Virus record (IMG/VR): IMGVR_UViG_3300017960_000047
Location: 1-29,724 of that record
DNA length: 29,724 nt
Reading direction: 5' to 3' (one strand)
From: a virus
Shown one piece after another: positions 39 through 29,064 of the stretch. The notes under the pieces are model-generated. The model ran no database searches, was not told the origin of the DNA, and worked only from the letters and a program-made list of their open reading frames with translations. The position numbers and the translations under genes were made by a program. Numbering within the stretch: the first letter of the stretch is position 1; every line of letters starts with the position of its first letter.

Positions 39-371
39 TTACCGAGCAAGCCGCTCGGTCATCCAAAGGCCAGTGCCGACGCGGCGCGTGCGCCTGTGCT
101 GCCGCGCCGCGTCTTCAGGGGTCGACCAGAAGCTGGCGAGCCGTCCGTGCGCCTCGCTGAACCATCGCTCGACCGCCAGCGCGTGCGAGCAAGGCCGCGA
201 CCGCGTGTCGTGGTACGCTGCCCAGTCGCACGTGCAGATCAGCCCCGAGGCCGTGTCGACCACGACGTAGGTGGATCCGCTCGGGCTCACGACCTCGAAG
301 TGTCCGCGCCCGGCGGGGTGAACCTTGCAAACCTTCACTTTGGTCTGCAACAGCTTCGCGTGTCTCTTCAT
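39..371 (-). CDS. SWIM zinc-finger domain protein
   Basis: A 110-residue basic protein. Residues 46-63 form a SWIM-type zinc finger: Cys46-x-Cys48, then Cys61-x-His63 (C-x-C-x12-C-x-H), preceded by beta-prone sequence (TYVVVDTASGLICTCDW) as is usual for this fold. SWIM fingers bind DNA or protein partners and occur in transposases, Swi2/Snf2 proteins and many small phage proteins, so the exact role is open. The start at 371 is chosen because GGAGGGAGG lies just upstream of this ATG; a longer reading frame to 437 has no such site. It is the second visible gene of the leftward unit, 99 bp after the unknown gene at 471-905. The C-terminus (QHRRTRRVG) is strongly basic, which fits nucleic-acid contact. 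Confidence 0.8.
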   Translation of the reverse strand: MKRHAKLLQTKVKVCKVHPAGRGHFEVVSPSGSTYVVVDTASGLICTCDWAAYHDTRSRPCSHALAVERWFSEAHGRLASFWSTPEDAARQHRRTRRVGTGLWMTERLAR

Positions 372-2181: not shown

Positions 2182-2808
2182 ATGCCTGATGCTTTCCAGT
2201 TTGATACGCAAGACCCTCTCGCACAGTGTGAAGGCGAGAGCGACCGCGCGAACGCAGCTCTGCGTGACTACGCCCACATGGGCGCGGGGCGGTCCCTGCG
2301 CCGCCTCGCCAAGCGTTACGCAAGCGTTCCGCAGACGGAAGCTCCCCCCACGCGCTCCGCTGGCACGGTTTCCGGTTGGAGCGTGCGTTACGCTTGGCAA
2401 GCACGCATCGCCGTTTGGACGCAGATCGACCAGCAGGAAGAGGAGGACGAGTGGAAGGCGCGACGCGCGCGCATCCGAGCGGACGCGTGGCAGGACTACG
2501 AGCAGCTGATCGAGCTGTGCCGCCAGATCACGGCTGCCGGGCCGACGTTCGTCCGCCGCACCCAACGCGTGGTCGACGAGGGCAAGCCGTCCATCATCGG
2601 GCCAGGCGGCGAGGTGCTTCACGCAGGGTCACCCCGCCAAGTCGTGATCACGCTGGCGCTCGACACCGTCGCGCTTTCGCGGCTGCGCAAGGTCGCGTCA
2701 GAGCTTGCCACGCAAGCGTCCGCAGACCTGGACGACGCGCTCGCCAGCGGGGTGATCCTTCACATCGTGCGCGACCGGGATGATACATCTAACGGTTCAT
2801 CTGCGTAA
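2182..2808 (+). CDS. Terminase small subunit-like protein
   Basis: A 208-residue protein. Residues about 36-80 form a helix-turn-helix of the kind found in small terminases (GRSLRRLAKRY, then TVSGWSVRYAWQARIAVW), followed by a charged helical stretch (EEEDEWKARRARIRADAW) that would serve oligomerisation. In this family the small subunit recognises the packaging site on phage DNA and hands it to the large subunit. The position supports the call: its last 29 bases overlap the start of the large terminase gene. The ribosome site is weak (CAGGT). The identification rests on the HTH pattern plus synteny rather than on strong conserved residues. Confidence 0.72.
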   Translation: MPDAFQFDTQDPLAQCEGESDRANAALRDYAHMGAGRSLRRLAKRYASVPQTEAPPTRSAGTVSGWSVRYAWQARIAVWTQIDQQEEEDEWKARRARIRADAWQDYEQLIELCRQITAAGPTFVRRTQRVVDEGKPSIIGPGGEVLHAGSPRQVVITLALDTVALSRLRKVASELATQASADLDDALASGVILHIVRDRDDTSNGSSA

Positions 2809-4039
2809 GCTCCACGCCAAGCAAGAGTGGGTATCATCCAACCTCGTCAAGCGCAACATCGTCGACGCGGGGCGTCGCTCGGGCAAGACGACGCTCGCCT
2901 CAGACATCGCCGTTAACAAGTTCTGCGAGGGCCGGCGCGTCCTGTACGGCGTGCCGACGATGGAGCAGATCGACCGCTTTTGGTTCGAGGTCAAGCTGGC
3001 CTTGGCCGAACCGCTGCAGCGTGGCATCCTGTACAAGAACGAGAGCCGGCACGTCATCGAGGTGCCTGGCACCGAGCAGCGCATCAGGGCCAAGACGTGC
3101 TGGAACGCTGACTCGCTGCGTGGTGACTACGCCGACTTCCTGATCCTCGACGAGTTCCAACTGATGCACGAGGACACCTGGAAGCGCGTCGGCGCGCCGA
3201 TGCTCCTGGACAACAACGGCGACGCCGTCTTCATCTACACCAACCGGCGCGGTTCCTACTTCGCCTCGCAGATGTACCAGACGGCCCAGGAGCGCGACCA
3301 GCTCGCGACCGCCAAGGGTGAGCGCCCGCGCTGGCGCACGTTTCACTTCACGTCGCACGACAACCCGTACCTGTCCAAGACCGCGCTCGAGGAGATCACG
3401 GAAGATATGTCACGCGTCGACTACCTGTTGGAGATCCTCGCCCAGGATATCGAGGACGACCCGCGCGCGCTGTGGGAGCGCGACTGGTTAGACGAGCTGC
3501 GAGCCATCAGGGCGCCCACCCTGACGCGCGTCGTGGTCGGGGTTGACCCGCCTGGAAGCGCCCAAGGAGCTGAGTGTGGTATAATAGTGGCAGGAACTGC
3601 GGTCTTTCACGGCCAGCTCCACGCGTACGTCATCGGTGACCGCTCGATCCGTGGCACGCCCAAGACCTGGGGCCAGGCCGTCTTGAGCGCTTACAACCTC
3701 CACGAAGCAGACATGATCATCGGAGAGGTCAACTTCGGCGGCGACATGGTCGAGGCCGTGATCCGCGCGGCGGCTGAGGCTGATTCCAAGTTCCGCTACA
3801 AGGGCGTACGGGCCAGTCGAGGCAAGGCGATCCGAGCCGACCCGATCGTCGCGCAGTACGAGAAGAAGCGCGTCCATCACGTCGGCACCTTCACGGCTCT
3901 GGAGGACGAGCTGTGCACGTGGTTCCCTGGAGGCGGACCGTCACCCAACCGGCTCGACGCGCTGGTTTGGGCTTTATCAGAGCTGCTCGTGCTGCCCAAC
4001 AAGCGTCGCCGCAAGGTGCGCGGGATGAGGACGGGCTGA
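2780..4039 (+). CDS. terL: Terminase large subunit
   Basis: A 419-residue DNA-packaging motor ATPase and nuclease. Walker A is GRRSGKTT (residues 31-38) and Walker B is LILDE (121-125), followed by the coupling motif FIYTNRRG. The C-terminal RNase H-like nuclease domain starts at VVVGVDPPGS (Asp256), continues with DMIIGEVN (Glu316) and ends at RLDALVWA (Asp393), which supplies the acidic metal-binding residues. The length is typical of compact siphovirus large terminases. It overlaps the small subunit by 29 bases, so translation is probably coupled. The nuclease part contains an embedded TGGTATAAT sequence (3577-3585) encoded with two consecutive ATA codons, unusual in this GC-rich gene. Confidence 0.95.
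   Translation: MIHLTVHLRKLHAKQEWVSSNLVKRNIVDAGRRSGKTTLASDIAVNKFCEGRRVLYGVPTMEQIDRFWFEVKLALAEPLQRGILYKNESRHVIEVPGTEQRIRAKTCWNADSLRGDYADFLILDEFQLMHEDTWKRVGAPMLLDNNGDAVFIYTNRRGSYFASQMYQTAQERDQLATAKGERPRWRTFHFTSHDNPYLSKTALEEITEDMSRVDYLLEILAQDIEDDPRALWERDWLDELRAIRAPTLTRVVVGVDPPGSAQGAECGIIVAGTAVFHGQLHAYVIGDRSIRGTPKTWGQAVLSAYNLHEADMIIGEVNFGGDMVEAVIRAAAEADSKFRYKGVRASRGKAIRADPIVAQYEKKRVHHVGTFTALEDELCTWFPGGGPSPNRLDALVWALSELLVLPNKRRRKVRGMRTG
3577..3585 (+). promoter_or_regulatory. Possible extended -10 promoter inside the terminase gene
   Basis: TGG-TATAAT is a perfect -10 hexamer with the extended TGn element, in coding frame as GGT-ATA-ATA. No matching -35 lies at 17 bp (a TTGACC is 31 bp upstream). 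Extended -10 promoters can work without a -35. If active it would add transcripts for portal and head genes. Confidence 0.3.
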
Positions 4040-4052
4040 CAAGGAGGATGTG

Positions 4053-5528
4053 ATGGAAACGAACGATCGAATCGCAGCCATGCGCGACGCCCGCCTGTTC
4101 GGCGCGACGCAGGCGCTGTCGCGCCTGATGCTCGCGTCGATGTTCGGTCAGAAGGCCTACGCGGGCGACCGTGACTACGAGCTGATCCTGGGTTACCCGA
4201 AGCAACCTAGCTTTCAAACGTACCGCAACCTGTACGAGAAGTGGAGCCTCGCCGGTCGCATCGTCGACCTGCCGGCCAAGGACACTTGGAAGTATCCGCC
4301 CGCCGTGACGGAACACGGTCGCGCGGACACCGACTTCACGAAGACCTTCGCGGAGCTGAACGAGCGCGTCCACGTCTGGAGCTCCCTGATGCGTCTCGAC
4401 CAACTGGCCGGTATCGGTCAGTACGGGGTCATGCTCATCGGCGTGCGCGACGGCGGCGCCCTTGAGGAACTCGTCGCTCCTGGATCGCTCTCTGATCAAG
4501 GGCCGGCGGGCATCCTGTACCTGCGCCCGCTCAACGAGGGCAGCGTGACCGTCTACCAGAAGAACAGCGACACGGCCAACGAGCGGTTCGGCTTGCCGGA
4601 GCTGTACAAGCTCAACCTGGAGTCAGGTAAGGAAGAGGTCATCGTTCATTGGCACCGCGTGCTCCACGTGGCCGAGAACTGCACGACGTCCCCTTGGCAG
4701 GGGCAGTCGCGCCTCGCGCGCTGCATGCAGCCGCTGCACAACATCATCAAGCTGGTCGGCGGCGGTGCCGAAGCAGCCTGGCTCGCCATGCGGCCGGGCA
4801 CGCTTCTGACCACGCAGCCGGACTACGAGATCGACGATGACGACATCAAGGACACGATCCAGCAAGAGATCAAGGAGTACGCCCACGACATGCTGCGCTT
4901 CCTTACGATCGAGGGAATGAACGCGCAGCAGCTTGGGACGCCGGACGTGCCGAACATCGAGAGTCAGTTCGACGCCAACATCGCGCTCATCGCTGCCGAG
5001 AGCGGCATCCCTCAGCGTGTGCTTCTCGGTAGCGCCGCTGGTGAGCTCGCTGCCGCCAAGTACGACTTGAAGCAGTGGGCAGGCGTCATATCAGCTCGCC
5101 AGCAGAACTACGCCGGACCTGAGATCGTGCGCCCGTTCGTTGAACGTCTGCAAGCGTGGGGGATCCTTCCGCCCACGCCTGATGGGTTCACGTTGGGGAT
5201 CGCCGAGCCCGGTTCAGATGATTACCGCTGGCCGACGATCCTACAGACCGACGCGCTGGAAGAGAGCGAGATCCTGCGGAACAAGGCCGCCGCCGTTCAG
5301 TCGTTGACCGATAAGGTGCAGATGATCATGCCGTCGACGATGACCGAGCGCCGGCAGTGGCTTGGCTTGCCCGCTGAGCCACCGAACGAACAGATCGCCG
5401 TCGAACGCGCCGGCGAACCGTCCGCCGTCGTCGTCAACGCCCTGTCGAACCTCGCGGAGGGCAAGATCACGATCGAGCAGTTCTCGCAGTTCGTCGTGTC
5501 CTTGCTGATGGAGCACGTACAGGAGTGA
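4053..5528 (+). CDS. Portal protein (DUF1073-type)
   Basis: A 491-residue portal subunit, which forms the ring at the capsid vertex through which DNA passes and on which the head assembles. The DUF1073-type pattern is visible: an N-terminal GYPKQPSFQTYRNLYEKWSLAGRIV-like start, then the core SPWQGQSRLARCM with a helical stem (LVGGGAEAAWLAMRPG), the IESQFDANIALIAAESGIPQ segment, RVLLGSAAGELA, and YDLKQWAGVISARQQNY leading to the C-terminal wing. The ATG at 4053 is five bases after AAGGAGG. A GTG at 4050 is also in frame but too close to the site. It lies directly after the large terminase and before the head morphogenesis gene, the standard order. Confidence 0.92.
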   Translation: METNDRIAAMRDARLFGATQALSRLMLASMFGQKAYAGDRDYELILGYPKQPSFQTYRNLYEKWSLAGRIVDLPAKDTWKYPPAVTEHGRADTDFTKTFAELNERVHVWSSLMRLDQLAGIGQYGVMLIGVRDGGALEELVAPGSLSDQGPAGILYLRPLNEGSVTVYQKNSDTANERFGLPELYKLNLESGKEEVIVHWHRVLHVAENCTTSPWQGQSRLARCMQPLHNIIKLVGGGAEAAWLAMRPGTLLTTQPDYEIDDDDIKDTIQQEIKEYAHDMLRFLTIEGMNAQQLGTPDVPNIESQFDANIALIAAESGIPQRVLLGSAAGELAAAKYDLKQWAGVISARQQNYAGPEIVRPFVERLQAWGILPPTPDGFTLGIAEPGSDDYRWPTILQTDALEESEILRNKAAAVQSLTDKVQMIMPSTMTERRQWLGLPAEPPNEQIAVERAGEPSAVVVNALSNLAEGKITIEQFSQFVVSLLMEHVQE

Positions 5529-5530
5529 GC

Positions 5531-6157
5531 ATGACGGAACTCGCCGCTTACGCAGAGCTTGGAGCCTTCGTCAGTGGAGGGCAATCGTCCTACGTTGCCG
5601 GGCTGCGTGCGGCCGTACGCGCGCTCTGGTCGGGCGTGATGACTTCCGAACAGGCCACGGACGCCTTCCAGTCTGCCGTCTCCCGGGGCGTGACGAGTGC
5701 CTGGTACGCTGGGCTGAAGGAGCTGGGCATCACGCCGGCAGAGATGAGCGAGGAAGAGCGCGCCGCGTTGTTGGACGAGAAGATCGCGCAGCTCACCTAC
5801 GCCGCGAACGCGATCGCTGAGATGGCGCAAGCCGTCGAGGACGGGGTGAAGCTTTCCACGCTTATGAATCGCGTTTCTTACTGGGAGCGCGCCTACGGGC
5901 ACATCAGAGAGAAGGCCGTTTCGCTCGCCGAAACGAACCCCAAGATGCGTTGGGAGTACGGCGACACGATCGACCATTGCCTCGATTGCTCGCGCGTGGC
6001 CGGGCGCGTGTACCGTAAGAAGACGTGGGACAAGTACGGATGGGTGCCGGGGAGCCGCGAGCTGAACTGCGGAGGCTGGCAATGCGATTGTCGACGGGTG
6101 GTGACGAAAGACCCGGTGACGCCGGGGCGTCCGCCCAACATGGTCGGACCGGGATGA
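5531..6157 (+). CDS. Phage head morphogenesis protein (Mu gpF-like)
   Basis: A 208-residue minor head protein. The C-terminal part shows the conserved gpF-like pattern: DTIDHCLDCSRVAGRVY (about residue 148 on), a tryptophan-rich middle (KTWDKYGWVPG) and a cysteine cluster (LNCGGWQCDCRR), which probably forms a small metal-binding fold. Such proteins enter the procapsid with the portal. ATG 5531 follows AGGAG at 5521-5525; a GTG at 5525 overlapping the portal stop is the alternative start. The protein is shorter than many gpF homologues because the usual long N-terminal region is reduced. The reading is tightly coupled to the portal gene. Confidence 0.85.
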   Translation: MTELAAYAELGAFVSGGQSSYVAGLRAAVRALWSGVMTSEQATDAFQSAVSRGVTSAWYAGLKELGITPAEMSEEERAALLDEKIAQLTYAANAIAEMAQAVEDGVKLSTLMNRVSYWERAYGHIREKAVSLAETNPKMRWEYGDTIDHCLDCSRVAGRVYRKKTWDKYGWVPGSRELNCGGWQCDCRRVVTKDPVTPGRPPNMVGPG

Positions 6158-6168
6158 CGGGGGTGCGT

Positions 6169-6567
6169 ATGAGCACGACGAGACGAGAGTTCTTGAAGGG
6201 GATGACGGCGAGCGCAGCACTGGCGGCGCTCGGGCGGTTGCCAGCGCCGCAAGGGCGTCTTTGGCTTGGGCGAGAGACGCCCTACGTGAAGGGCGACTTC
6301 AGCTTTACTACTGGCATCGGGCGGGGCAGCCCGCTCCTGTGGGATAACTGCCGGGTTGATCTCGGGGTCGACCTGGCGCAATGCGAGGGCGAGAACTGCG
6401 CTATGGCCTTTGGCGGCATCAACGGGCGAACGGTCTTCGTGGATCCGCACCATGGCAGTAATCACGCGAGCGGCACGAGCACAAGCGACGCCGTTCGCAC
6501 GCTCGCGCAAGCCCTCAATCTATCAGACCCCGTCGAGGGTGCAGACGAATGGATCATCTTGCCGTAA
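6169..6567 (+). CDS. Tat-signal protein with truncated beta-helix N-cap
   Basis: A 132-residue protein starting with a textbook twin-arginine signal (STTRREFLKGMTASAALAAL) followed by a short hydrophobic stretch. A mature region of about 100 residues follows. Its end (FVDPHHGSNHASGTSTSDAV, then RTLAQAL and EWIILP) matches the N-terminal cap of right-handed beta-helix proteins, like the region YYVDPSSGSDGNDGKSPSNA of the spike at 15826. The gene stops where the helix coils should begin. Start 6169 has GGGGGTG upstream; ATG 6154 overlapping the gpF stop (ATGA) is an alternative that would add five residues before the signal. Export of a folded protein through the host Tat pathway is implied, unusual for a phage structural operon. 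It may be a remnant of a larger spike or exported enzyme. Confidence 0.75.
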   Translation: MSTTRREFLKGMTASAALAALGRLPAPQGRLWLGRETPYVKGDFSFTTGIGRGSPLLWDNCRVDLGVDLAQCEGENCAMAFGGINGRTVFVDPHHGSNHASGTSTSDAVRTLAQALNLSDPVEGADEWIILP

Positions 6568-6710
6568 TCGAGATCGCGCTTTGGACGGTCGTCGCCGGGG
6601 CGTTAGCCGTTGCCTTTGCCTGGCTTTTCGTTCGCCTCTTCCTGGCGCTGATCAGCCCACTCTTCGGCTTCTATCACAAGAACGACGCCGGCAAAACGAA
6701 CGGCGGTTGA
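6549..6710 (+). CDS. 53-residue single-pass membrane protein
   Basis: A short frame that starts inside the end of the Tat-signal gene (19-base overlap) and translates to MDHLAVIEIALWTVVAGALA, then a continued hydrophobic run to about residue 41 and a hydrophilic tail (YHKNDAGKTNGG). GAGGG lies nine bases upstream of the ATG. The hydrophobic segment (residues 7-41) is long enough for one kinked or two short membrane helices. The stop codon (6708-6710) overlaps the -35 box of the next promoter, so the gene ends exactly where a new transcription unit begins. Function unknown; a membrane partner of the upstream Tat substrate or a lysis-related peptide are possibilities without direct evidence. 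Confidence 0.6.
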   Translation: MDHLAVIEIALWTVVAGALAVAFAWLFVRLFLALISPLFGFYHKNDAGKTNGG

Positions 6711-6735
6711 CAAGCGCACGTAACTCCAGTACAAT
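6707..6735 (+). promoter_or_regulatory. Internal rightward sigma-70-type promoter
   Basis: TTGACA (6707-6712) and TACAAT (6730-6735) are separated by exactly 17 bp, the same form as the promoter at 1573, including CGGCGGTT just upstream of or around the -35. Start would be near 6742. It serves the fibre and capsid genes downstream, but a terminator-like hairpin follows within 60 bases. Confidence 0.8.
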
Positions 6736-6750
6736 GAGTGTGTAAGCCGC

Positions 6751-6806
6751 GAGCACAACACACGTCATCGCAGCAGCGAACCCGATGACCGGGTTGTGCT
6801 CTTTTC
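6751..6806 (+). terminator. Terminator-like hairpin just after a promoter: attenuator or small RNA end
   Basis: GAGCACAAC (6751-6759) pairs with GTTGTGCTC (6793-6801) and, inside it, GTCATCG (6764-6770) pairs with CGATGAC (6783-6789), around a 12-base loop. The outer stem is followed directly by TTTTCT. This is the shape of a rho-independent terminator about 10-60 bases after the predicted transcription start. Either it ends a small RNA of about 65 nt, or it is an attenuator that must be read through to express the genes from 6821 onward. Confidence 0.6.
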
Positions 6807-6820
6807 TAACGTGATGGCCA

Positions 6821-7126
6821 ATGGCAGACCTGTTCGACCGTCTCTATCTTTCGTCACCCAACGACGCCTCGATCGGCGTTCATTACTTCCGCGCGGCGAT
6901 GGGCGACTACGCGACCGGCCACAGCACGCGCCAAGAGATCATCGGCCATTGGGCGCTCGATGCTGAAGCACAAGCCGATCTGAACGTGCTGTGCGACCAC
7001 GTCGACAGTCTGAGCGTGTTGGGCAAGGCTGGGTTTCTCCTGGAGCTGCACGACGTGCTGATGATCGCCGAGGAAGGCGCCAAGTACACGACCAAGGCCG
7101 CGTTTAGAGCGCGGCTGGGGCTGTAA
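6821..7126 (+). CDS. Conserved-type phage hypothetical protein
   Basis: A 101-residue acidic, mostly helical protein with the features HYFRAAMGDYATG, a DAEAQADLNVL helix, LLELHDVLMIAE and a C-terminal YTTKAAFRARLGL. This pattern resembles small uncharacterised proteins found next to phage fibre genes, but no biochemical role is known to me. It has no clear Shine-Dalgarno site; the stretch before its ATG is the 3' side of the terminator-like hairpin plus CTAACGTGATGGCCA. Expression may therefore depend on leader structure. It is one base upstream of the GTG start of the large fibre protein and is probably co-translated with it. Confidence 0.75.
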   Translation: MADLFDRLYLSSPNDASIGVHYFRAAMGDYATGHSTRQEIIGHWALDAEAQADLNVLCDHVDSLSVLGKAGFLLELHDVLMIAEEGAKYTTKAAFRARLGL

Positions 7127-7127
7127 T

Positions 7128-9866
7128 GTGGGCGTTACCTGTGCCGTCACGCGCGCCGCGTGCGCCGTCGGGGGTGGCAATCAGAACATCACCACCGACG
7201 ACCTCGGCGGGCTTACGCCGGTCGCCGCCTTGTTCATCGTCACCCGCGCTACAGCTGATGGCGTTGCCGCCGACCATTTCGTCTGGAGCATCGGGGCGGC
7301 CACCGCTGCCGCTGAGCAATGGGCTTGCTGCATCGGCAGCGAGCACAACCACGGTACGTCCGACGCCTACCGCCGAGGGGCGACCGACGAGTGCGTCTAC
7401 ATCACCGACCCGACCGACGGCACGGTTGACGGTGAAGCGAACCTTAACACCTTCATAGAAAACGGAGTGACGATCACCTGGGGCAACGCGCCAGCAGGCG
7501 CGTACCTCTTGACGGTCGTCTTCTTCGCCGGCACCGACGTCAGCGCCCACGCCGACACGTTCAACCCAGACGCGACTGAAGACCAAGCCACCAACGTCAC
7601 CGATCCAGGGTTCGAGCCGGACCTGGTCTTCTTCGCCGGCACCGACTCGCTGATGAACGACGCGTCTGCGAACGGGGCGCCCAACGCGGTTGGAGTCGTC
7701 GCCAACATCGCCGGAACGCCGCAGGGCTGCAAGGCGATCTACATCTCAGACAATAGCGGCACGTCGAGCTCTGATGGCACCACCGTTCACGACCGGGTGT
7801 ACCAGGCCACGAACGGGGTCGGCAACGTCAAGTACACCCTGGAGATCGACGACTTCGACTCGGACGGTTTCAGCGCGTACTCGCGGGACGGCGGTGGGGA
7901 CGCGAACGACGACATCGGCTACCTGGCGCTCAACTTCAACGCTGCCGTCAAGGTCTGGTGCGGGGGGTACGACTCGCCCACGGGCAACGGCAACGACTCG
8001 GACACCTCGCCGGGCTTCAAGCCTCAATTGCTCGTCCTGTTCCCGAACACGTGCGCCGCCGTCGACACGGTGTATGAAGACGGCAAGGGAAGCGTGCAGT
8101 GCATCTCGGTCATTGACGGGGACGAGGCTTACTGCATGTCGGCAGCTGATGAAGACAATCAGGGCACGACCGACTCGCAGAGCTTGAGCGATAACCAGGC
8201 CGTCAACCTGCCCTACGACGACGGTAGCCAGGCTTACGCCGCAACGTTCGTGAGCTTCGACGCGACCGGATGGACGCTGAACTTCACCAACACCGACGGC
8301 ACCGCTCACAAGTGGTACGGGTTCGCCGTCGAGGAAGTCAGCGCCGTCCAAGAGGACGTAGCGCTCACGATCACGCACGTCCGAGCCGTCACCGAGGCGG
8401 GTGCCGCTGCAGGAGCGGGAGCTCCCGCAGCACTCGCTCGATCGCACGCTATTACCGCAGGTGGGGCTGGCGCAGCTGCCGGGACTGCGTCCCTCACCTC
8501 AGTTCGTACCTTTACAATGCAGGGCACGGCTCAAGGCGAGTCTGCCCTCCCCTTGAGTCGCAGCCTGGACATCGCCCAAGCAGGAGCGGCGCAGGCTAGC
8601 AACGCCGTCGCGCTACTGCGCGTCCTCACCGTAGCGACCGTCTCGCTGGGCCAGGCAGCCAGCGGCACCTCGCTCACCCACTCGCTCGCTCTATCGACCA
8701 TCGCAGGTTCAGCAAGCGAAGGCGGCGTGTCGCTGGCTAGCCAACTTGGAGCCGTCCCTGGGGCTGGCGCCGTCACGTTGGCCGCGTTGGGCTTGGCGGA
8801 CGATCTTGGCCTGACGGTGAACGGTCTGTTCGTCGTCGGGGTCGGGCTCACGCTGGCCGGCCAGCGGGCGATCTCGTCTGCTGCGAGTGCTGCCGGTCAA
8901 GCGACGCTCACGCAAGCCAGGGCTATAGGGATCACGCCGGGCGCGGCGTCCACGGCGCAAGCTGACGCGACGTTGGGGGTGGTGATCGAGCTTTCTGCTC
9001 AAGCTGCCGGCCAAGCCGGAGCCGCTTTCTCGTTGGCGCTCGCCCGCGCCGCGCTCATCGCTGGTGCTGCTGGCGTGAACGTAAGCGTGCTTCTCGCAGT
9101 CGCGAGGGCTTTGGCGGGAACGGCACAGGCTGGAGCGCAGGCGAGCCAAGCGGTAGCCCGGTCGGTCGGGGCCGCGGTGCAAGCTGGCGCGACCGCCGTA
9201 GCAGACACGACGTTGTCAGCAGACCGCGCTTTCTCTGCGGAGGCTGAGGCCAGCGTGACCGCGACTCTCGCGTTGGCGTTAGTGGAGGCCGTGGCACAGT
9301 CCGGCACGGCACAAGCCAGCGCGCATTGCCCTGGGTGCAATTTCGTCACGGGGTTTGCGCTCACGCCGGCAGGCGGGGCCGCGACGCAGGCCAGCACGAC
9401 CGTGAGCCACGTGCTACAGCTCACGACCGACGGTCGGTTCTTGGTGTACGCGAGCTTGTCGTTGGACGCCAACCGGGCCATCGCTGCCGAGGCCATCGCG
9501 CAAGCTGAGAGCGCCGCCGCCGCCGCCATCACGCAGACCGTAGAGCCGGCTGGCAGCGTCGCAGCCGGCGGCGCGATCATCGTTCCCCTGGACCTGGACG
9601 TTACGACGGCCAGCAGTCGCGGCGTGACCGGGGCGATCGTTACGGCCATCGAGCACGCCGTCGCGGTCGGCACGATGATCTTCCCGGTGCCGTGCGAGCG
9701 CATCTACGTCGTGGTCGTCGAGGGAAGGGCCTACGCCGTCGCGCTCAACGTTCGGACGGCGACGATCGAGCTTGAGACACGCAGCGCGGGCGTCGCCGTT
9801 GAAGGACGCAGCACGACCGTTTCGGCAGAAGACCGCACCTTCGAGGTGCCGGATCCAACTGAATAG
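7128..9866 (+). CDS. Large repeat-rich virion fibre protein
   Basis: A 912-residue protein with three parts. Residues about 28-135, 156-282 and 293-404 are three divergent copies of one domain, each opening with a G(L/F)xPxLxxF strand and closing with an aromatic/Gly pattern (DFDSDGFSAYSRD, SFDATGWTLNFT). Such units occur in phage fibre and surface proteins. Residues about 408-830 are Ala/Gly-rich, with roughly fifteen degenerate repeats of about 20 residues (pattern hxRxhxhxxxGxAxAxaxhxL), likely a beta-rich shaft. The C-terminus (VEGRAYAVAL, then VEGRSTTVSAEDRTFEV) repeats an ExR-T-V motif common in phage structural genes. Start is GTG at 7128, two bases after the upstream stop. The position inside the head module suggests a head or neck fibre rather than a tail-tip fibre. 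Confidence 0.75.
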   Translation: MGVTCAVTRAACAVGGGNQNITTDDLGGLTPVAALFIVTRATADGVAADHFVWSIGAATAAAEQWACCIGSEHNHGTSDAYRRGATDECVYITDPTDGTVDGEANLNTFIENGVTITWGNAPAGAYLLTVVFFAGTDVSAHADTFNPDATEDQATNVTDPGFEPDLVFFAGTDSLMNDASANGAPNAVGVVANIAGTPQGCKAIYISDNSGTSSSDGTTVHDRVYQATNGVGNVKYTLEIDDFDSDGFSAYSRDGGGDANDDIGYLALNFNAAVKVWCGGYDSPTGNGNDSDTSPGFKPQLLVLFPNTCAAVDTVYEDGKGSVQCISVIDGDEAYCMSAADEDNQGTTDSQSLSDNQAVNLPYDDGSQAYAATFVSFDATGWTLNFTNTDGTAHKWYGFAVEEVSAVQEDVALTITHVRAVTEAGAAAGAGAPAALARSHAITAGGAGAAAGTASLTSVRTFTMQGTAQGESALPLSRSLDIAQAGAAQASNAVALLRVLTVATVSLGQAASGTSLTHSLALSTIAGSASEGGVSLASQLGAVPGAGAVTLAALGLADDLGLTVNGLFVVGVGLTLAGQRAISSAASAAGQATLTQARAIGITPGAASTAQADATLGVVIELSAQAAGQAGAAFSLALARAALIAGAAGVNVSVLLAVARALAGTAQAGAQASQAVARSVGAAVQAGATAVADTTLSADRAFSAEAEASVTATLALALVEAVAQSGTAQASAHCPGCNFVTGFALTPAGGAATQASTTVSHVLQLTTDGRFLVYASLSLDANRAIAAEAIAQAESAAAAAITQTVEPAGSVAAGGAIIVPLDLDVTTASSRGVTGAIVTAIEHAVAVGTMIFPVPCERIYVVVVEGRAYAVALNVRTATIELETRSAGVAVEGRSTTVSAEDRTFEVPDPTE

Positions 9867-10732: not shown

Positions 10733-12553
10733 ATGCCTTACGAGAAGTGGACCGACGTCAACACGGCGATCCGCGGGATCAAGCCGCAAGTCACGCTGGA
10801 GCAAGCCAACTTGATCGCCCGCTGGGCCGACGCGATCGAATCCGGAGACAACCCGCCGGACAGCCCGTGGGCCGCCGCGATCGCTCAGTTCAAGAAGGCG
10901 TACGAGGTCAAGGACGGCAAGTGGGTCAAGCAGGAAGGATCGTCTGCGAGCAACATGCTGACGGTCTGCACCCTGATGGACACGCAGGCCACGCAGCGCC
11001 AGTACCAGGGCCGCGACTACCTCGTGTCGCCGGCTATCCTCATCAAGGAAGGCGTCGTCATGAACGGCGAGCTGCCGGACGCCGAAGAGGTCTCACACCT
11101 GCCCTATGCCTGGGCCGGACGCCCGCTCGTCATGGATCACCCCAAGGATGCAGCTGGAGACCTCATCAGCGCCAACGACCCGACTGTACTGGACACCGTC
11201 GGCCTGGGCTGGGTGTTCAATCCTGAATGGCGTGACGGCGCCTTGCACGTCGAGCTGTGGACGGACATCGCCAAGGCGCAGGTCAAGGGTGGCTCATACG
11301 CGAGCGTGCTGAACAAGCAGCGCGTCGGCGAGCCGATCGAGATCAGCTCCGCTTACTTCCGCGACCGCGACTTCCAGGCTGGGGAGTCTGGAGGGCGTCC
11401 GTTCTTCACGCGGGCCTTCAACATGCGACCCGATCACGTGGCCGTCATCATGGACGGACAGGGCGCGTGTTCCTGGGAGGACGGATGTGGAGCGCCGCGC
11501 GTGAACATGGCCGTCAACATCAGGTCGAGCGCGCGGACGCCTGATTACAAGGGCACGGAGACGACGTCGTGGGAGAGCGCGAACAAGTCACTGGCGGCCT
11601 ACATCGCCGGTTACTACAAGCACTCCAGAGCGTCCAAGCCGGACGAGCCGGTGAAGACCGTCGGCGATATGCCGGCAGCCATGAAGACCTGGATCGCGTC
11701 GAAGTCGTTGTTGGGAGACGCGGGAGCTGACGAGTTCAGCGACCTGTTGTTCTTCCCGGTGGTGAATCCAGGCACGAACAAGCTCAACGCCGGCGCTTTG
11801 CAGGCCGTCATCAGCGGTCGCGGCGCGCAGGCGAAGATCGCGGAGGGCGCCAAGTCGTCCGCACAGGAGCGGGCGAGGGGTCTGATCGACAAGGAGTTTC
11901 AGTCGGAGAAGACCGCCGCCCAAAGGTTAGTCGCAGCCCTTAACTCCATCGTCGGGATGGTGGGGGCGCACATCACTCTACAGGAGGCCGATCAGATGGA
12001 TGAGAATCGAACGCTAATTCTCGACGATGGGCGTTTCGGATTGTCTCAGGAGCTGGTCGAAGGCTTGTCTGATGACGCAGCGGAGAAGTTCGCCGCTTTC
12101 ATCAAGGACAACCCCGCGACCGAGCCGAAGGACAAGGACGAAGACCCGGAAGGGAAGAAGCAGAAAGCAACCGAAGACCCGGAGAAGGGCGAAGACGACG
12201 AAGAACAGGGCGAAGACGAGAAGCAGGCGGCCAACGTCGAGCTTCCCGCAGAGGTCGCCGAGCTGGCTCAGTTCATCAAGGACGCTGGCGGGGCTGATAC
12301 CCTGAAGGCATCCTTGGCCGAGCTGGCTCAGAACGCGCAACAGGAGCGCGCCGAGCTGGTCGAGCTGTTGGTCGCTAACGACGCATGCGTCGTGCCGCAG
12401 GAGACACTCGAGCAGCTGCCGGTCACGACCCTGCGTGCGTTGAAGGCGTCCTTCATCAAGCCAGACTACTCCGGCCAGGGACTGGTGGTCGCGTCCAAGG
12501 ACAAGATCACGCCACTAGCGCGTCCGGACGTGTTCGCCGTCAAGGCGGACTGA
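10733..12553 (+). CDS. Capsid maturation protease fused to scaffold
   Basis: A 606-residue protein. Residues 1-65 resemble a ChaB-like helical domain (end: FKKAYEVKDGKWV). Residues about 75-260 are a DUF2213-type prohead protease: YLVSPAILIKEGVV, RPLVMDHP (His136), EPIEISSAYF (Ser205/206) and RPDHVAVIMDGQGACSWEDG (His235); the His and Ser residues are the likely catalytic ones. Residues about 285-392 are a conserved linker (SLLGDAGADEFSDLLFFPVV, ISGRGAQAKI). The rest is an acidic Lys/Glu stretch (about 459-500) and a coiled-coil-like tail, the scaffold part, cut out at maturation. Protease-scaffold fusion before decoration and capsid genes is a known arrangement. Confidence 0.85.
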   Translation: MPYEKWTDVNTAIRGIKPQVTLEQANLIARWADAIESGDNPPDSPWAAAIAQFKKAYEVKDGKWVKQEGSSASNMLTVCTLMDTQATQRQYQGRDYLVSPAILIKEGVVMNGELPDAEEVSHLPYAWAGRPLVMDHPKDAAGDLISANDPTVLDTVGLGWVFNPEWRDGALHVELWTDIAKAQVKGGSYASVLNKQRVGEPIEISSAYFRDRDFQAGESGGRPFFTRAFNMRPDHVAVIMDGQGACSWEDGCGAPRVNMAVNIRSSARTPDYKGTETTSWESANKSLAAYIAGYYKHSRASKPDEPVKTVGDMPAAMKTWIASKSLLGDAGADEFSDLLFFPVVNPGTNKLNAGALQAVISGRGAQAKIAEGAKSSAQERARGLIDKEFQSEKTAAQRLVAALNSIVGMVGAHITLQEADQMDENRTLILDDGRFGLSQELVEGLSDDAAEKFAAFIKDNPATEPKDKDEDPEGKKQKATEDPEKGEDDEEQGEDEKQAANVELPAEVAELAQFIKDAGGADTLKASLAELAQNAQQERAELVELLVANDACVVPQETLEQLPVTTLRALKASFIKPDYSGQGLVVASKDKITPLARPDVFAVKAD

Positions 12554-13104: not shown

Positions 13105-14121
13105 ATGCTACATCCTATCACAGTCAACATCCTCCAGGATCCTGCCGCACTGGAGGACTTCATCACGAACTCCTGGCGTCCGCACGGCTTCTCGCCGGAT
13201 GGACGTGCCGTCGACGCGAACGGCCAGATCATCGGCAACGCGTGGCTGAACCGGGAGGAGTGGGAACGCCTCGACGCCGTCGTCATGGCAATGGGCAAGC
13301 AGCGGCTGGGTGCTTGGCAGGACGTCATCAACGCCGGCCTGCGTTCGAACACCACGCTCGCGGAGGAGTTCAGCAAGTGGCGCGTAGCGAGCGAGCGCAC
13401 GGAAGCGACCGTCTCTATGGACTTCCGCACGCGGGTCGACTACGATCGGACAGACCGGAAGACCTACGGCGTTCCAATCCCCATCTTCAGCGCAGCCTTC
13501 AGCATGGGACGCCGGGAGCTGGCGGTCGTTCGCGCGACCGGCGGCGACGTGGAGACCTTCGAGGCCGAGCAGGCCGCCGAGGCCGTCGCGGAGAAGGTCG
13601 AGGCCACCCTGGTAAACGGGAACACCGACGTCGTGATTGGCGGCTCCAGCATCGCTGGGTATACCACGCTCAGCGCCCGCGACACCGGGACCGCCGCCGC
13701 TTACGGCGGGGGCGACTTCGGCACCATCACGAACATCTATCCGACCTTCACTGGCATGATGGCCGCACTGGCTGCCAAGCGCTTTTACGGGCCGTTCGGC
13801 TGCTACCTCGCCTCCACCCAGTACAACCAGATGCTCGACTTCTACTCCGACGGGTCGGGACAGAAAGCTCTCGATCGGGTCGTGGGGCTGAACGAGATTC
13901 AGTTCGTCAAGCCGCATGACCTGATGACCGATGGCGAGCTGCTGATGGTGCAGCTTACAAGGGACGTCGTCGACGTTCGCATCGGGCTGAGCTTGGAAAC
14001 GCGACGCTGGGAGACACCGAGCGGGAGCGAGATGCACTTCCTGGTCGTGTTCTGCGGTACACCTCGCGTGAAGCAGAACTACGAAGGCAATGCAGGAATC
14101 GCGCACGCTACAGCTTGCTAG
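13105..14121 (+). CDS. Major capsid protein (HK97 fold, encapsulin-like)
   Basis: A 338-residue shell protein. Residues about 95-200 show the encapsulin-like HK97-fold pattern: SMDFRTRVDYDRTDRKTYGV, VPIPIFSAAFSMGRREL, then a long spine helix (ETFEAEQAAEAVAEKVEATL) and VNGNTDVVIGG. The C-terminal half holds the A-domain (LAAKRFYGPFGCYLASTQYN, then VKPHDLMTDGELLMVQLTRD and RVKQNYEGNAGIAHA). The length is usual for this capsid class and there is no cleavable delta domain of note. AAGGAG precedes the ATG. Its place between decoration protein and head-tail connectors is canonical. Confidence 0.92.
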   Translation: MLHPITVNILQDPAALEDFITNSWRPHGFSPDGRAVDANGQIIGNAWLNREEWERLDAVVMAMGKQRLGAWQDVINAGLRSNTTLAEEFSKWRVASERTEATVSMDFRTRVDYDRTDRKTYGVPIPIFSAAFSMGRRELAVVRATGGDVETFEAEQAAEAVAEKVEATLVNGNTDVVIGGSSIAGYTTLSARDTGTAAAYGGGDFGTITNIYPTFTGMMAALAAKRFYGPFGCYLASTQYNQMLDFYSDGSGQKALDRVVGLNEIQFVKPHDLMTDGELLMVQLTRDVVDVRIGLSLETRRWETPSGSEMHFLVVFCGTPRVKQNYEGNAGIAHATAC

Positions 14122-17565: not shown

Positions 17566-18723
17566 GTGAAGATCGTTACCTGGACGGATGCGCCTTGGGC
17601 GCACACGGGATACGGCATACAGAACCTTATCAACCTAAGGATCCTGCAAGAGCTGGGGCACGAGGTCGTCGTCGCGTCGACGTTCGGCCTTCACGGCGCT
17701 GCCTTGACCTGGGGAGACACCACGATCTACCCGGTGTGCCGCAACGATCTCGGAGAGGACGTCTTGCCTACCTACCTGAGCCGCGAACAGGCCGACGTCG
17801 TGTTGAGCCTGCTCGACGTTTGGGGAGCGTCCCCCAAGGTGCGCCGCACGATGCCGTGCGCCTGGGCCGCCCAGATACCGGTAGACGGGACACCCGTCTC
17901 TGAGCGTATGCGCTACATCATCTCTTCGATCGACTACCCCGCGGCCATCTCTCGCTTCGGACAAGGAGAGCTGGAGAAGGTCGGCGTCGAGGCTGCCTAC
18001 GTGCCGCTCTCCATCGACACGGAGACCTTCACTCCAGGCAACAAGATGGAAGCGCGCACGCGCTTGGGCCTGCCCCAGGACCGCTTCATCGTCAGCGTCG
18101 TGGCGACCAACAAGGGCTATCCGTCGCGCAAGAGCTGGCCGGAGCTACTGCGCGGGTTCGCGCGCTTCCTCGTGGACTGCCCTGCCGCCATGATCTACCT
18201 GCATACGACGATGACGCCGTACGGGTCGAAGGGCGTGGGCTTCTACTTCGAGCCGTTCGTTCGGCAGCTCGGCTTATCGCCATCGTCCTACACCTTTCCG
18301 GACGAGAAGGAGCTGGCGATCGGGCTCTCTCAAGAGACGATGCGAGACGTGTACGTCGCGTCCGACGTTCTGTTGAGCCCGAGCATGGGAGAAGGCTTCG
18401 GTTTGCCGATCGTCGAGGCGCAAGCGTGCGGCTGCCCGGTCATCACGCAGAACTGCACAGCGATGGCCGAGCTGACCGTCAACGGTCTGGCGATCGAGCC
18501 GTTGCAGCCGTTTTGGGTGCCGCCGCTGACCTACTACTGGTACCTGGCGAGCGAGCAGCGCATCGCCCGCGCCTTGCATCAGGTTCATGATCGAACCGCC
18601 TACGAGGTGGAAACACATGCGTGGGCCGGAATCAACTTCGTGCGCGACGAGTTCTCGATACCCGTCGTGAGAGACCTCTACTGGCGCCCTTGGCTGCGAG
18701 AGATGGAGGCGACGCTATGGTAA
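17566..18723 (+). CDS. GT4-family (GT-B fold) glycosyltransferase
   Basis: A 385-residue retaining-type glycosyltransferase. The N-terminal Rossmann domain starts MKIVTWTDAPWAHTGYGIQN, with the Gly-rich acceptor-side loop typical of GT4. The donor-binding domain shows VSVVATNKGYPSRKSWPELL, then VYVASDVLLSPSMGEGFGLP with the E-x7-E pair Glu276/Glu284 and AQACGCPVITQN, which contact the nucleotide sugar. The start is a GTG at 17566 with GGAGGG upstream. It is the first of four glycan-modifying genes inserted between the tail terminator and the tail tube. Its substrate is unknown; a virion protein or an existing glycan is likely. Confidence 0.88.
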   Translation: MKIVTWTDAPWAHTGYGIQNLINLRILQELGHEVVVASTFGLHGAALTWGDTTIYPVCRNDLGEDVLPTYLSREQADVVLSLLDVWGASPKVRRTMPCAWAAQIPVDGTPVSERMRYIISSIDYPAAISRFGQGELEKVGVEAAYVPLSIDTETFTPGNKMEARTRLGLPQDRFIVSVVATNKGYPSRKSWPELLRGFARFLVDCPAAMIYLHTTMTPYGSKGVGFYFEPFVRQLGLSPSSYTFPDEKELAIGLSQETMRDVYVASDVLLSPSMGEGFGLPIVEAQACGCPVITQNCTAMAELTVNGLAIEPLQPFWVPPLTYYWYLASEQRIARALHQVHDRTAYEVETHAWAGINFVRDEFSIPVVRDLYWRPWLREMEATLW

Positions 18724-19511
18724 GCATCGGCTGGCTCCAGGACCGGGAGAGCATCATCGGGGGGTCAGAGCTGTCGTGCTCTCGCTTGATCGAGACTGCA
18801 CCGGCAGACATCGAGGTCGTCCGTTGCCCGCCCAACAAGAGGCCGCCGCGAAACGTTGCCGCGTTCGTCGTGCAGAACTGCACCACGTACACGCAGCGTT
18901 GGATCGAAGAGCTGGCTGTGCATCCTGTCATCAAGCAGGTGCGCGATCCGTGGTACGCAGGTGACGCGGTGCTGCGCCGGTGGATCCTCGATCACGCCGT
19001 GCTGGTCACTTTCTCGAGCACCGTGCATCTGGCGACGTTCGGTTACAACGTCAACGCGCCGCACAAGATCATGCCGCCGCCGCTCGACCTGACGCCGTTC
19101 AGGGAAGCTGCACTGCCCCGAGCCGAGCGGAGCGGTAACATCTTCGTCGGGCGACTCGACCCTTACAAGGGAGTGCCTGCCCTGATCGACCATGCGCTCT
19201 CAGAGCACCTTGAGCTGGACTGTTATGGAGACCCGTACATGAGCTTCGGAAAGCTGCCGTTGAACATCAAGCTCCACGGCCAGGCGCCTTACGAGCTGAT
19301 GCCGCAGATCATGGGCAAGGCCGACACGCTCTACTTTTGGCCTGAATGGCCGGAGGCGTTTGGAAGGGTCGTCGCTGAGGCGTGGGCTGCCGGGTGCTTC
19401 CTTGAGGTTCGAGGGAAGGTCGGGGCGATGGAGTGGATCGGGCACAAGGAGGACGAGATCGAGCAAGGCTCCAGCATGTTCTGGAACGCCGTTCAGGAGG
19501 TGATAGCATGA
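18717..19511 (+). CDS. Second GT4-type glycosyltransferase
   Basis: A 264-residue GT-B-like protein, smaller than usual GT4 enzymes. It starts MVSIGWLQDRESIIGGSELS (a short acceptor domain), passes through PPPLDLTPF, and its donor domain has NIFVGRLDPYKGVPALIDHA and WPEWPEAFGRVVAEAWAAGC with Glu213-x7-Glu221. ATG 18717 has GGAGG upstream and overlaps the stop of the first glycosyltransferase; the longer frame from 18621 lies within that gene. The reduced N-terminal domain may mean a different acceptor or dependence on the partner enzyme. Confidence 0.85.
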   Translation: MVSIGWLQDRESIIGGSELSCSRLIETAPADIEVVRCPPNKRPPRNVAAFVVQNCTTYTQRWIEELAVHPVIKQVRDPWYAGDAVLRRWILDHAVLVTFSSTVHLATFGYNVNAPHKIMPPPLDLTPFREAALPRAERSGNIFVGRLDPYKGVPALIDHALSEHLELDCYGDPYMSFGKLPLNIKLHGQAPYELMPQIMGKADTLYFWPEWPEAFGRVVAEAWAAGCFLEVRGKVGAMEWIGHKEDEIEQGSSMFWNAVQEVIA

Positions 19512-20218
19512 GTCGAGTGGTCTACGTTTTGTCTCTGCCGCGCAGCGGATCATCGTGCATCGCCGGCGCGCTGCATCGCGTGGGCGTCAACATGGGTGAG
19601 GGGAACTTCCAGCCGACGGACGCGCGGAATCCACGGGGGTACTACGAGGACGTGCGTTGGAAGCAGGTCATGCAGACCCTCAGCGGCACGCGTTACGCCA
19701 TGCATCTGCCGACGGGGCTGTCTGCTTGGAACGAGTACGCCATCAACGACTTCGCCAAGCGATGCGCGAAGCACAACCCGCTATGGGGGATGAAGTGCCC
19801 GCGCCTCGCCTTCACGCTCCAGGTCATCCAACCGATCGTGAGCGAGTACGTCGCGGAGAGCCGCGTCGTCCACGTCACGCGTGACCTGGGCGAGAGCGTC
19901 ATGTCGTTGGTCGAGCACTCACTCACGGCTTACGGAGGACGATGGAAGCTGACGCAGCTGGCGGCAGAGGAGAAGCTGCGCTTGTGGCAAGAGCAGCTCG
20001 ACGCCAGGCTGGAAGCGTTCGACGGGCAGGTGTTCGAGGTGGACTACCAGGAAGTGCTGGAAGATCCGCGACTCATCGTAGAGGAGCTGCGCGACTTCTG
20101 CTTCGCTGGCCTGAGCGTCGCCTCGCCTCCGATCGACCGCGCGCTGGAATGGGTCGCGCCGGAGCTGAAGCATCACGGCCAGGATGAGCCGGAGGGAGCC
20201 CCGGAGGATGCAGACTGA
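19508..20218 (+). CDS. PAPS-dependent sulfotransferase
   Basis: A 236-residue protein of the sulfotransferase fold. The 5'-phosphosulfate loop is VLSLPRSGSSCIAG (LPRSGSS at residues 10-16), and the 3'-phosphate site is VTRDLGESVMSLVEHS (Arg125, Ser130/Ser133), with WGMKCPRL between. These bind the donor PAPS, from which sulfate is moved to a sugar or tyrosine hydroxyl. The C-terminus has FEVDYQEVLEDPRLIVEELR, as in family members. The ATG overlaps the previous stop (ATGA), with AGGAGGTG upstream. Between glycosyltransferase genes, a sugar acceptor is most likely. A sulfotransferase in a phage tail operon is very unusual. Confidence 0.88.
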   Translation: MSRVVYVLSLPRSGSSCIAGALHRVGVNMGEGNFQPTDARNPRGYYEDVRWKQVMQTLSGTRYAMHLPTGLSAWNEYAINDFAKRCAKHNPLWGMKCPRLAFTLQVIQPIVSEYVAESRVVHVTRDLGESVMSLVEHSLTAYGGRWKLTQLAAEEKLRLWQEQLDARLEAFDGQVFEVDYQEVLEDPRLIVEELRDFCFAGLSVASPPIDRALEWVAPELKHHGQDEPEGAPEDAD

Positions 20219-20828
20219 AGCTGCCATCGTCGTGCCGACGCTTCGGGACAACCTGAAGCTGGGCGCTCGGCTCGATCACGCCGTGAGCATCGCGGGCGTG
20301 GACTGCTTGCCCGTCGTCGTGGAGGATCGTTCACGGGAAGGATACACGAGGACGGTCAATCGCGGGATTCGTCTGGCGCTCAAGAAGATACCGAACTACG
20401 CGCACATCTTGGTCATGGTCGATGACTGCGTGCCGGTGACGAATAATTGGCTCGTCGTGCTCATCGACGAGATGGAAAGCCGCGCCAGCGCTACCGCCCT
20501 CTTCTCTGGGCCATCGGGAACGTGCCGGACGCACCCGCAAAATACCGGGACCGTCGGGGATCATCGGCAGCCCAAGTTCGTCGACCATCTGGCCGGCTTC
20601 TGCTGGCTCATCAACAGGCGTGTGATCGACGAGCTTGGATTGCTCGACGAGCAATTCGAGCACTACGCGTCGGACGTTGACTATCAGTGGCGTGCTCATC
20701 ACGCCTTGGGCGCGCGGTCGCTTTGGGTTCCGCGCGTTTACGTGGAGCACAAGCTCCATGAACCGATCAGTGGGCGGTGGATGAAAGACCACCACGCACT
20801 GTCTAACATCTGGGAGGAAAAACGATGA
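20208..20828 (+). CDS. GT-A fold (GT2-like) glycosyltransferase
   Basis: A 206-residue protein with the N-terminal nucleotide-sugar domain EAAIVVPTLRDNLKLGARLD and a metal-binding DXD-like site at VMVDDCVP (Asp72-Asp73). The acceptor-side part is HLAGFCWLINRRVIDELGLL, then DEQFEHYASDVDYQWRAHHA and YVEHKLHEPISG, typical of GT2 enzymes that use a catalytic Asp and a late His. ATG 20208 overlaps the sulfotransferase end; the frame also opens at 20184. Its last bases overlap the tail tube start (ATGA), so cassette and tube are translated together. It probably adds one sugar to a glycan made with its neighbours. Confidence 0.85.
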   Translation: MQTEAAIVVPTLRDNLKLGARLDHAVSIAGVDCLPVVVEDRSREGYTRTVNRGIRLALKKIPNYAHILVMVDDCVPVTNNWLVVLIDEMESRASATALFSGPSGTCRTHPQNTGTVGDHRQPKFVDHLAGFCWLINRRVIDELGLLDEQFEHYASDVDYQWRAHHALGARSLWVPRVYVEHKLHEPISGRWMKDHHALSNIWEEKR

Positions 20829-28424: not shown

Positions 28425-28453
28425 TTGACAAACGCGTCTAGTTGGCCTATCAT
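28425..28453 (+). promoter_or_regulatory. Rightward sigma-70-type promoter before the ParB-like genes
   Basis: TTGACA (28425-28430) and TATCAT (28448-28453) are 17 bp apart. The start would be near 28460, giving a leader of about 47 nt to the ATG at 28507. The 93-bp gap between the tail operon and this gene is the widest in the right half of the window, which supports a new transcription unit. Confidence 0.72.
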
Positions 28454-28506
28454 AGGGAGGCGAGGGGAGACCGTTGCCTCTTTTGCTGTCACGTCAAGGA
28501 GACCGC

Positions 28507-29064
28507 ATGATGCAAGCGACTTTTGAGCGGCTTGACACTCTCGTTCGGCTTCCTCGCAACCCCAAGCTGCACGACCTCCAAGATATCAACGATGCGTACG
28601 ACGAGTTCGGCTTCATCCAGCGAATCATCATCAACGACGTCACCGGTCGGCTGATCGCCGGCGCAGGACGCGTGGACACGCTGCAGAGGCGCAAGGTTGC
28701 CGGCAAGGAAGCGCCGGCAAACATCAAGGTCGATCAAGACGGCATGTGGCTCGTGCCGGCTGACCGGGTGAGCGTTCCAGAGAGCAAGGAGGAGGCGGCG
28801 AGCTTGGCGTTGAACAGGATCGGGGAGAACGAAGGATACGACGACCGGCTGCTCGCCTCCATCCTCTCCGACCTGGCGGCAGACGGCCAGCGTGAGGGTG
28901 TCGACGGCCTGGCAGGGACCGGGTTCGACGGAGACGACCTGGACGCCCTGTTACTCAAGCTGCAATCGTCGGGACCGTTGCCGGAGGACGAGGACGGGAG
29001 TCGTGACGAGGACGAGTATCGCTGCCCGCAGTGCGGATATGAGTGGTCTGGGAGGCCGAGATGA
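28507..29064 (+). CDS. ParB-like protein with C-terminal half zinc ribbon
   Basis: A 185-residue protein. Its ParB-like domain has LVRLPRNPKLHDLQDINDAY, RLIAGAGRVDTLQRRKV (the box normally GHxR, here GAGR) and AASLALNRIGENEGYDDRLL. Family members bind or cut DNA; many phage copies sit next to DNA modification genes. A hydrophilic acidic linker leads to YRCPQCGYEWSG, only two Cys, a half zinc-ribbon. AAGGAG precedes ATG 28507 (ATG 28510 also in frame). It overlaps the next ParB-like gene by an ATGA. The altered box and zinc tail suggest a diverged regulatory or adaptor role. Confidence 0.78.
   Translation: MMQATFERLDTLVRLPRNPKLHDLQDINDAYDEFGFIQRIIINDVTGRLIAGAGRVDTLQRRKVAGKEAPANIKVDQDGMWLVPADRVSVPESKEEAASLALNRIGENEGYDDRLLASILSDLAADGQREGVDGLAGTGFDGDDLDALLLKLQSSGPLPEDEDGSRDEDEYRCPQCGYEWSGRPR

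Follow-up and report, generated by a model that had tools for sequence, protein, structure and literature searches.

Why a promoter within the structural gene block of a virus should be followed at once by a terminator-like hairpin is the question raised by positions 6707–6806 of a linear virus record from IMG/VR, the full 29,724 bases of which are referred to here as the window. Judged from its sequence features, this element could be the start of a late transcription unit, comprising the fibre and head genes, that is gated by a promoter-proximal intrinsic terminator, and we give this reading about an even chance. Other phages already provide examples of such gates on late gene expression, and the element is probably one more of this kind, here in an uncharacterised phage group. 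Among 50,697 phage records, positions 6000–8500 have no near-identity DNA match and the closest terminase is that of Methanosarcina virus MetMV (52%); neither a portal search of viral contigs nor a capsid search of bacterial genomes returned a match. The gene order around the element is given in Table 1. Within the structural block, the gene directly 3' of the MuF-position gene (6169–6567, +) carries a Tat-like signal (MSTTRREFLKG) and is possibly accessory, and glycosyltransferase-like and sulfotransferase-like genes lie between the head and tail genes (17566–20828), modification of the virion or of the host surface being a possible function.

Table 1. Features around the promoter and hairpin; coordinates are those of the window unless another record is named.
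Feature	Coordinates	Strand	Comment
Terminase genes	2182–4039	+	
Portal	4050–5528	+	
Gene in MuF position	5525–6157	+	
Hydrophobic ORF, 53 aa	6550–6710	+	TGA stop overlaps -35 box of the 6707 promoter
Sigma70-type promoter TTGACA-17-TACAAT	6707–6735	+	TTGACA 6707–6712, 17-nt spacer, TACAAT 6730–6735
ACGTAACT in -35/-10 spacer	6718–6725	+	Candidate factor-binding site
Two-part stem, terminator-like hairpin	6751–6801	+	Arms 6751–6759/6793–6801 (9 bp) and 6764–6770/6783–6789 (7 bp)
Alternative hairpin AACCCG/CGGGTT	6779–6795	+	Would disrupt both terminator arms; may be chance
T-run TTTTCT, predicted RNA end	6802–6807	+	From sequence
First gene behind candidate gate, 101 aa	6821–7126	+	Start supported by homologues in L010–L012
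Repetitive protein, 912 aa	7128–9866	+	
Maturation-protease-like protein	10733–12553	+	Pfam and PHROGs
Major capsid protein	13105–14121	+	Pfam and PHROGs; tail genes come after
158-aa protein, RHH-like N-terminus and sigma70 region 4 C-terminus	L169 16022–16495	-	In the contig of L162

The original prediction had described a near-consensus promoter, a stem of 9 plus 7 bp ending in TTTT and a downstream gene lacking a clear ribosome site, and all three features are borne out. The promoter matches the consensus at 11/12 positions, and transcription would start at about 6742, seven bases past the -10, a placement taken solely from the position of the promoter. The promoter class is real, because TTGACAN16-18TANNNT has four matches in the window against none for the reversed pattern, with excesses of 6:0 and 7:0 in two related records; aligned with one another, the three + strand promoters of the window have little in common beyond the hexamers and adjacent bases. 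The hairpin, directly 3' of which TTTTCTAA begins at 6802, is the only perfect stem in the window of at least 7 bp that has a loop shorter than 45 nt and a T-run. Folding energy on its own makes the leader only modestly unusual, since its minimum free energy of -24.2 kcal/mol gives a z-score of -2.3 against dinucleotide shuffles, 6/200 of which fold equally well; a d'Aubenton-Carafa-type score of d = 5.6 marks the hairpin as a positive but weak terminator, comparable to some intragenic hairpins. No match of the leader to Rfam exceeded the gathering score. At the 6821 start, the anti-Shine-Dalgarno (anti-SD) duplex has an energy of -1.3 kcal/mol, the median for random sequence being -3.0. The homologues of the 101-aa gene in L010–L012 use the same start with a clear SD site and stand without a promoter/hairpin leader, and in the phage collection the gene has no relative. 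The gene and the large repetitive protein behind it are paired in otherwise unrelated phages (window 6821–9866; L010 and L011 from 10001).

Chance does not account for the pairing of promoter and hairpin in the window. As a null we used first-order Markov sequence matched to the dinucleotide composition of the window; its 358.5 Mb contained 108 promoters with at least 11/12 matches, equivalent to 0.018 expected per window on both strands, and three are observed on the + strand of the window. None of the null promoters at this threshold had a stem of at least 7 bp with a T-run within 100 nt, and a single one did when at least 10/12 matches were accepted. Terminator-like hairpins lie at most 110 nt downstream of seven of the 18 TTGACA-type promoters in the window and in the contigs of two relatives described below (G007 for L009, G010 for L162), where 2.7% would be expected (P 3e-7, an optimistic value, as some of the 18 are related to one another). 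No such hairpin lies behind most other promoters in G010 or behind any of the four promoters examined in the L007 stretch of G006. One of the seven is a second 11/12 promoter of the window (28425–28510), with a strong terminator-like hairpin at 28457–28480 (d = 24.5, TTTT) between the -10 and the SD/ATG at 28507, which belongs to a ParB-like gene. This hairpin begins upstream of the inferred start, at about -3, and is therefore probably a stop signal for transcription coming from upstream.

The capsid protein led to three related records, namely L009 (60%) and the pair L162 and L163 (63% to the window); L009 was the sole match in a capsid alignment search. L162 and L163 have the same sequence in this region and are counted as one case, giving three independent cases including the window, in records that are fragmentary. 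Synteny with the window extends to the tape measure gene, from the portal in L162/L163 and from the protease in L009. Ahead of the head protease each relative has one + strand 11/12 promoter (L009 1830; L162/L163 5405/5424); in L009 the -35 shares bases with the stop of the ORF before it, and in L162 it begins 8 nt past the stop. In L009 and L162 the promoter is followed, in this order, by a terminator-like hairpin, a good SD and a start codon. The L009 hairpin (1890–1942) is a 13-bp perfect stem with TTTTT (d = 47); in L162 another hairpin, with TTTTTT, lies ahead of the terminator-like one (5501–5520, with TTTTTCTTTT, d = 18). Right after the -10, L009 and L162 have similar 5' leaders (ACAAT.G.ATA.CAGG). 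The window hairpin aligns with no relative, the hairpin sequences of the three are unrelated and the first genes behind the candidate gate are dissimilar, from which it follows that the layout, and not the RNA sequence, is conserved. More distant relatives, comprising Brevundimonas, Mannheimia and Citrobacter phages and L168, do not have the layout. A promoter and hairpin in L005 were set aside, as the promoter is weak and the hairpin closes an excisionase-like gene at its 3' end and was taken for an ordinary terminator; a whole-collection pattern scan for a promoter plus GAGCACAAC was discarded as too loose, the GTTGTGCTC partner being kept in none of the loci returned.

We hypothesize that host RNA polymerase carrying the housekeeping sigma factor would initiate at about 6742 and that, unaided, much of this transcription would halt at the T-run near 6806, yielding a leader RNA of about 65 nt. 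Late in infection the polymerase may acquire resistance to termination, a phage factor loading at the promoter being the most likely cause, and would then continue into the gene at 6821 and the head genes; relief of the terminator could come from an antitermination factor or from partial read-through. The sequences themselves establish the promoter and hairpin, their non-random association, the recurrence of the layout in syntenic relatives and the common spacer element; termination, its relief and a protein as the agent of relief are all inferred here. Factor dependence of the gate is unproven, because searches for the Q families PF06530 and PF03589 gave nothing, a -10-like pause site is missing from the window and the terminator score is weak.

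Phage lambda has its pR' promoter before the lysis genes, whereas here the element sits within the structural region, ahead of the head and fibre genes. The resemblance to pR'-tR' of lambda and phage 21, which work with Q, consists in a sigma70 promoter, in an intrinsic terminator placed between it and the late genes, and in a candidate spacer element (PMC6606751). The spacer between -35 and -10 is the binding region of lambda and phage 21 Q and of AlpA (PMC6606751, PMC9371919), and here the 8-mer ACGTAACT is common to the window and L162 promoters in the same register, 4 nt before the -10 (shuffle P ~1e-4; the pair was picked after the data were seen, but it is orthologous). It is absent from the L009 spacer. 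In contrast to the lambda and phage 21 systems, the first transcribed bases of the window (6736–6760, by inspection) hold no -10-like pause element, and no Q family protein (PF06530, PF03589) was found. In L009 a -10-like CACAAT occupies -1 to +5, where the AlpA promoter has CACGAT, and L162 has GACAAT at about -3 to +3; the full set of features is present in none of the three phages.

The AlpA promoters of Pseudomonas aeruginosa, where the terminator begins at +54 in alpB and at +26 in PA0807 (PMC7969949), share with the window a short distance from start to terminator, the stem here spanning about +10 to about +60 with the T-run some 60 nt from the start. They also share a terminator before the first ORF and a recognition element between -35 and -10, a candidate for which is present in the window; the terminator of alpB, likewise weak, depends on NusA (PMC7969949, PMC9371919). 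Unlike the AlpA promoters, the window spacer is missing the AlpA element GGGACG, and the pause element at -1 to +5 is found in L009, not in the window. The element combines a sigma70-type promoter of an enriched class with a predicted intrinsic terminator before the first late gene that is weak by score and stronger in L009 and L162. We regard it as working like the Q/AlpA type and do not file it as a member, because a search of the window for the pause element was negative and there is no known cognate factor.

Neither PF06530 nor PF03589 identified a protein in the available records, those of the window, L009 and L163 being fragments without most early genes. One candidate factor, and a candidate only, is a 158-aa protein of the L162 contig that would recognise the TTGACA/ACGTAACT promoter. 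Its C-terminus matches sigma70 region 4 (PF04545, E 6e-12) and its ribbon-helix-helix-like N-terminus falls below the Pfam cut-off; a fold resembling sigma region 4 is also found in the DNA-binding part of phage 21 Q (PMC6606751). The records of the window and L009, which miss most early genes, showed no such 158-aa protein, and an AlphaFold model of the L162 protein was left unused (mean pLDDT 52). That the head operon is gated by an antitermination system unrelated to the known Q, N, AlpA and put systems is doubtful. If the proposed gate is real, promoter-proximal terminator gating would extend to a phage group without a close cultured relative and would operate within the structural region, ahead of the head and fibre genes, as a compact late switch for which the conserved spacer element and the candidate sigma region 4 protein in a relative would offer the clue to the factor. 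A literature search for internal promoters in structural operons found nothing.

The strongest competing explanation is an operon boundary without regulation and with incomplete termination, at which the hairpin ends terminase-portal transcription, the promoter restarts it and a fixed read-through sets the level of head-gene mRNA without any factor. The window hairpin is weak enough to leak, and at the 28425 site the hairpin precedes the inferred start and can stop only upstream transcription well. A boundary of this kind would be better served by a terminator placed before the promoter, whereas three phages have the promoter first, and it leaves the shared spacer element ACGTAACT unexplained. 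These arguments are not decisive; we consider the boundary unlikely, though a serious competitor to the gate.

Relief might instead lie in the RNA itself, either through an attenuator that switches between the terminator and the 6779–6795 fold or through an RNA that acts on RNA polymerase like HK022 put, and we hold this to be very unlikely. The alternative hairpin with its 5' fold reaches -20.6 kcal/mol, within about 3 kcal/mol of the terminator (-23.8), and is preferred at transcript lengths of 52–56 nt, but alternative folds this strong are common by chance and the leader is unconserved between the window and its relatives. The likeness of the L009 and L162 leaders counts in favour of an RNA-only mechanism. 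HK022 put resembles the window leader in being a structured RNA of about 70 nt just past a phage promoter, but it consists of two adjacent stem-loops and antiterminates downstream, whereas the window has one two-part stem with a T-run (PMC9378689).

That the stem serves as an RNase III site or a 5' stabilising hairpin, with the U-rich stretch aiding ribosomes at a gene without an SD, is highly improbable. A two-part stem with an internal loop does lie just past the promoter, 19 nt before an SD-less start codon, and the promoters and RNase III sites of T7 are arranged in a similar way. Yet L009 and L162 have good SDs and nevertheless retain hairpin and T-run, and an RNase III site would not require the T-run.

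The original prediction had left open whether the element makes an RNA of about 65 nt or gates the fibre and capsid genes, and comparison favours the gate. A dedicated trans-acting small RNA with its own promoter and terminator would be produced at exactly this length by the spacing of the two, but it is very improbable: relatives with the same layout do not conserve the RNA sequence, Rfam gives no match and a protein gene lies directly downstream in every case. A layout kept without the hairpin sequence suits a terminator better than a trans-acting RNA, and a short RNA would be a by-product of termination. A chance coincidence of promoter and hairpin, to which the folding z-score alone would lend some colour, is scarcely credible given the Markov null and the recurrence in relatives.

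Other structured or regulatory sites were seen in the same records. The leaders of HNH (NUMOD4-like) genes at L009 8626 (-), L009 13639 (-), L162 13304 (-) and L163 13323 (-) contain three long complementary segments of 16–19, 7–10 and 10–13 bp in the order 1-2-3-1'-2'-3', all of them crossing, and a T-run after the last segment precedes an SD and ATG. Their sequences vary while the pairing is retained, and they have no Rfam match. A clear three-helix leader is absent from six HNH homologues of known phages, L171 has several long complementary segments, and a literature search on HNH leader pseudoknots found nothing. Either an uncommon type of pseudoknot or a switch that works in sequence is conceivable here, and the novelty of these leaders may exceed that of the element at 6707–6806. 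At 1399–1620 of the window, divergent promoters (1427–1399, -; 1573–1601, +) surround repeated ACTGCCGTTCTAAC-like units and palindromes, which looks like a control region with operators. In L138 (G006 22776–22804, -), a locus with a tRNA at 163–232 (-), the sequence behind a promoter is GC-rich and structured, with possible pairing of GCGCTTTTTCTCTGCG to CGCAGAGAAAAGGCGC some 70 nt further on.
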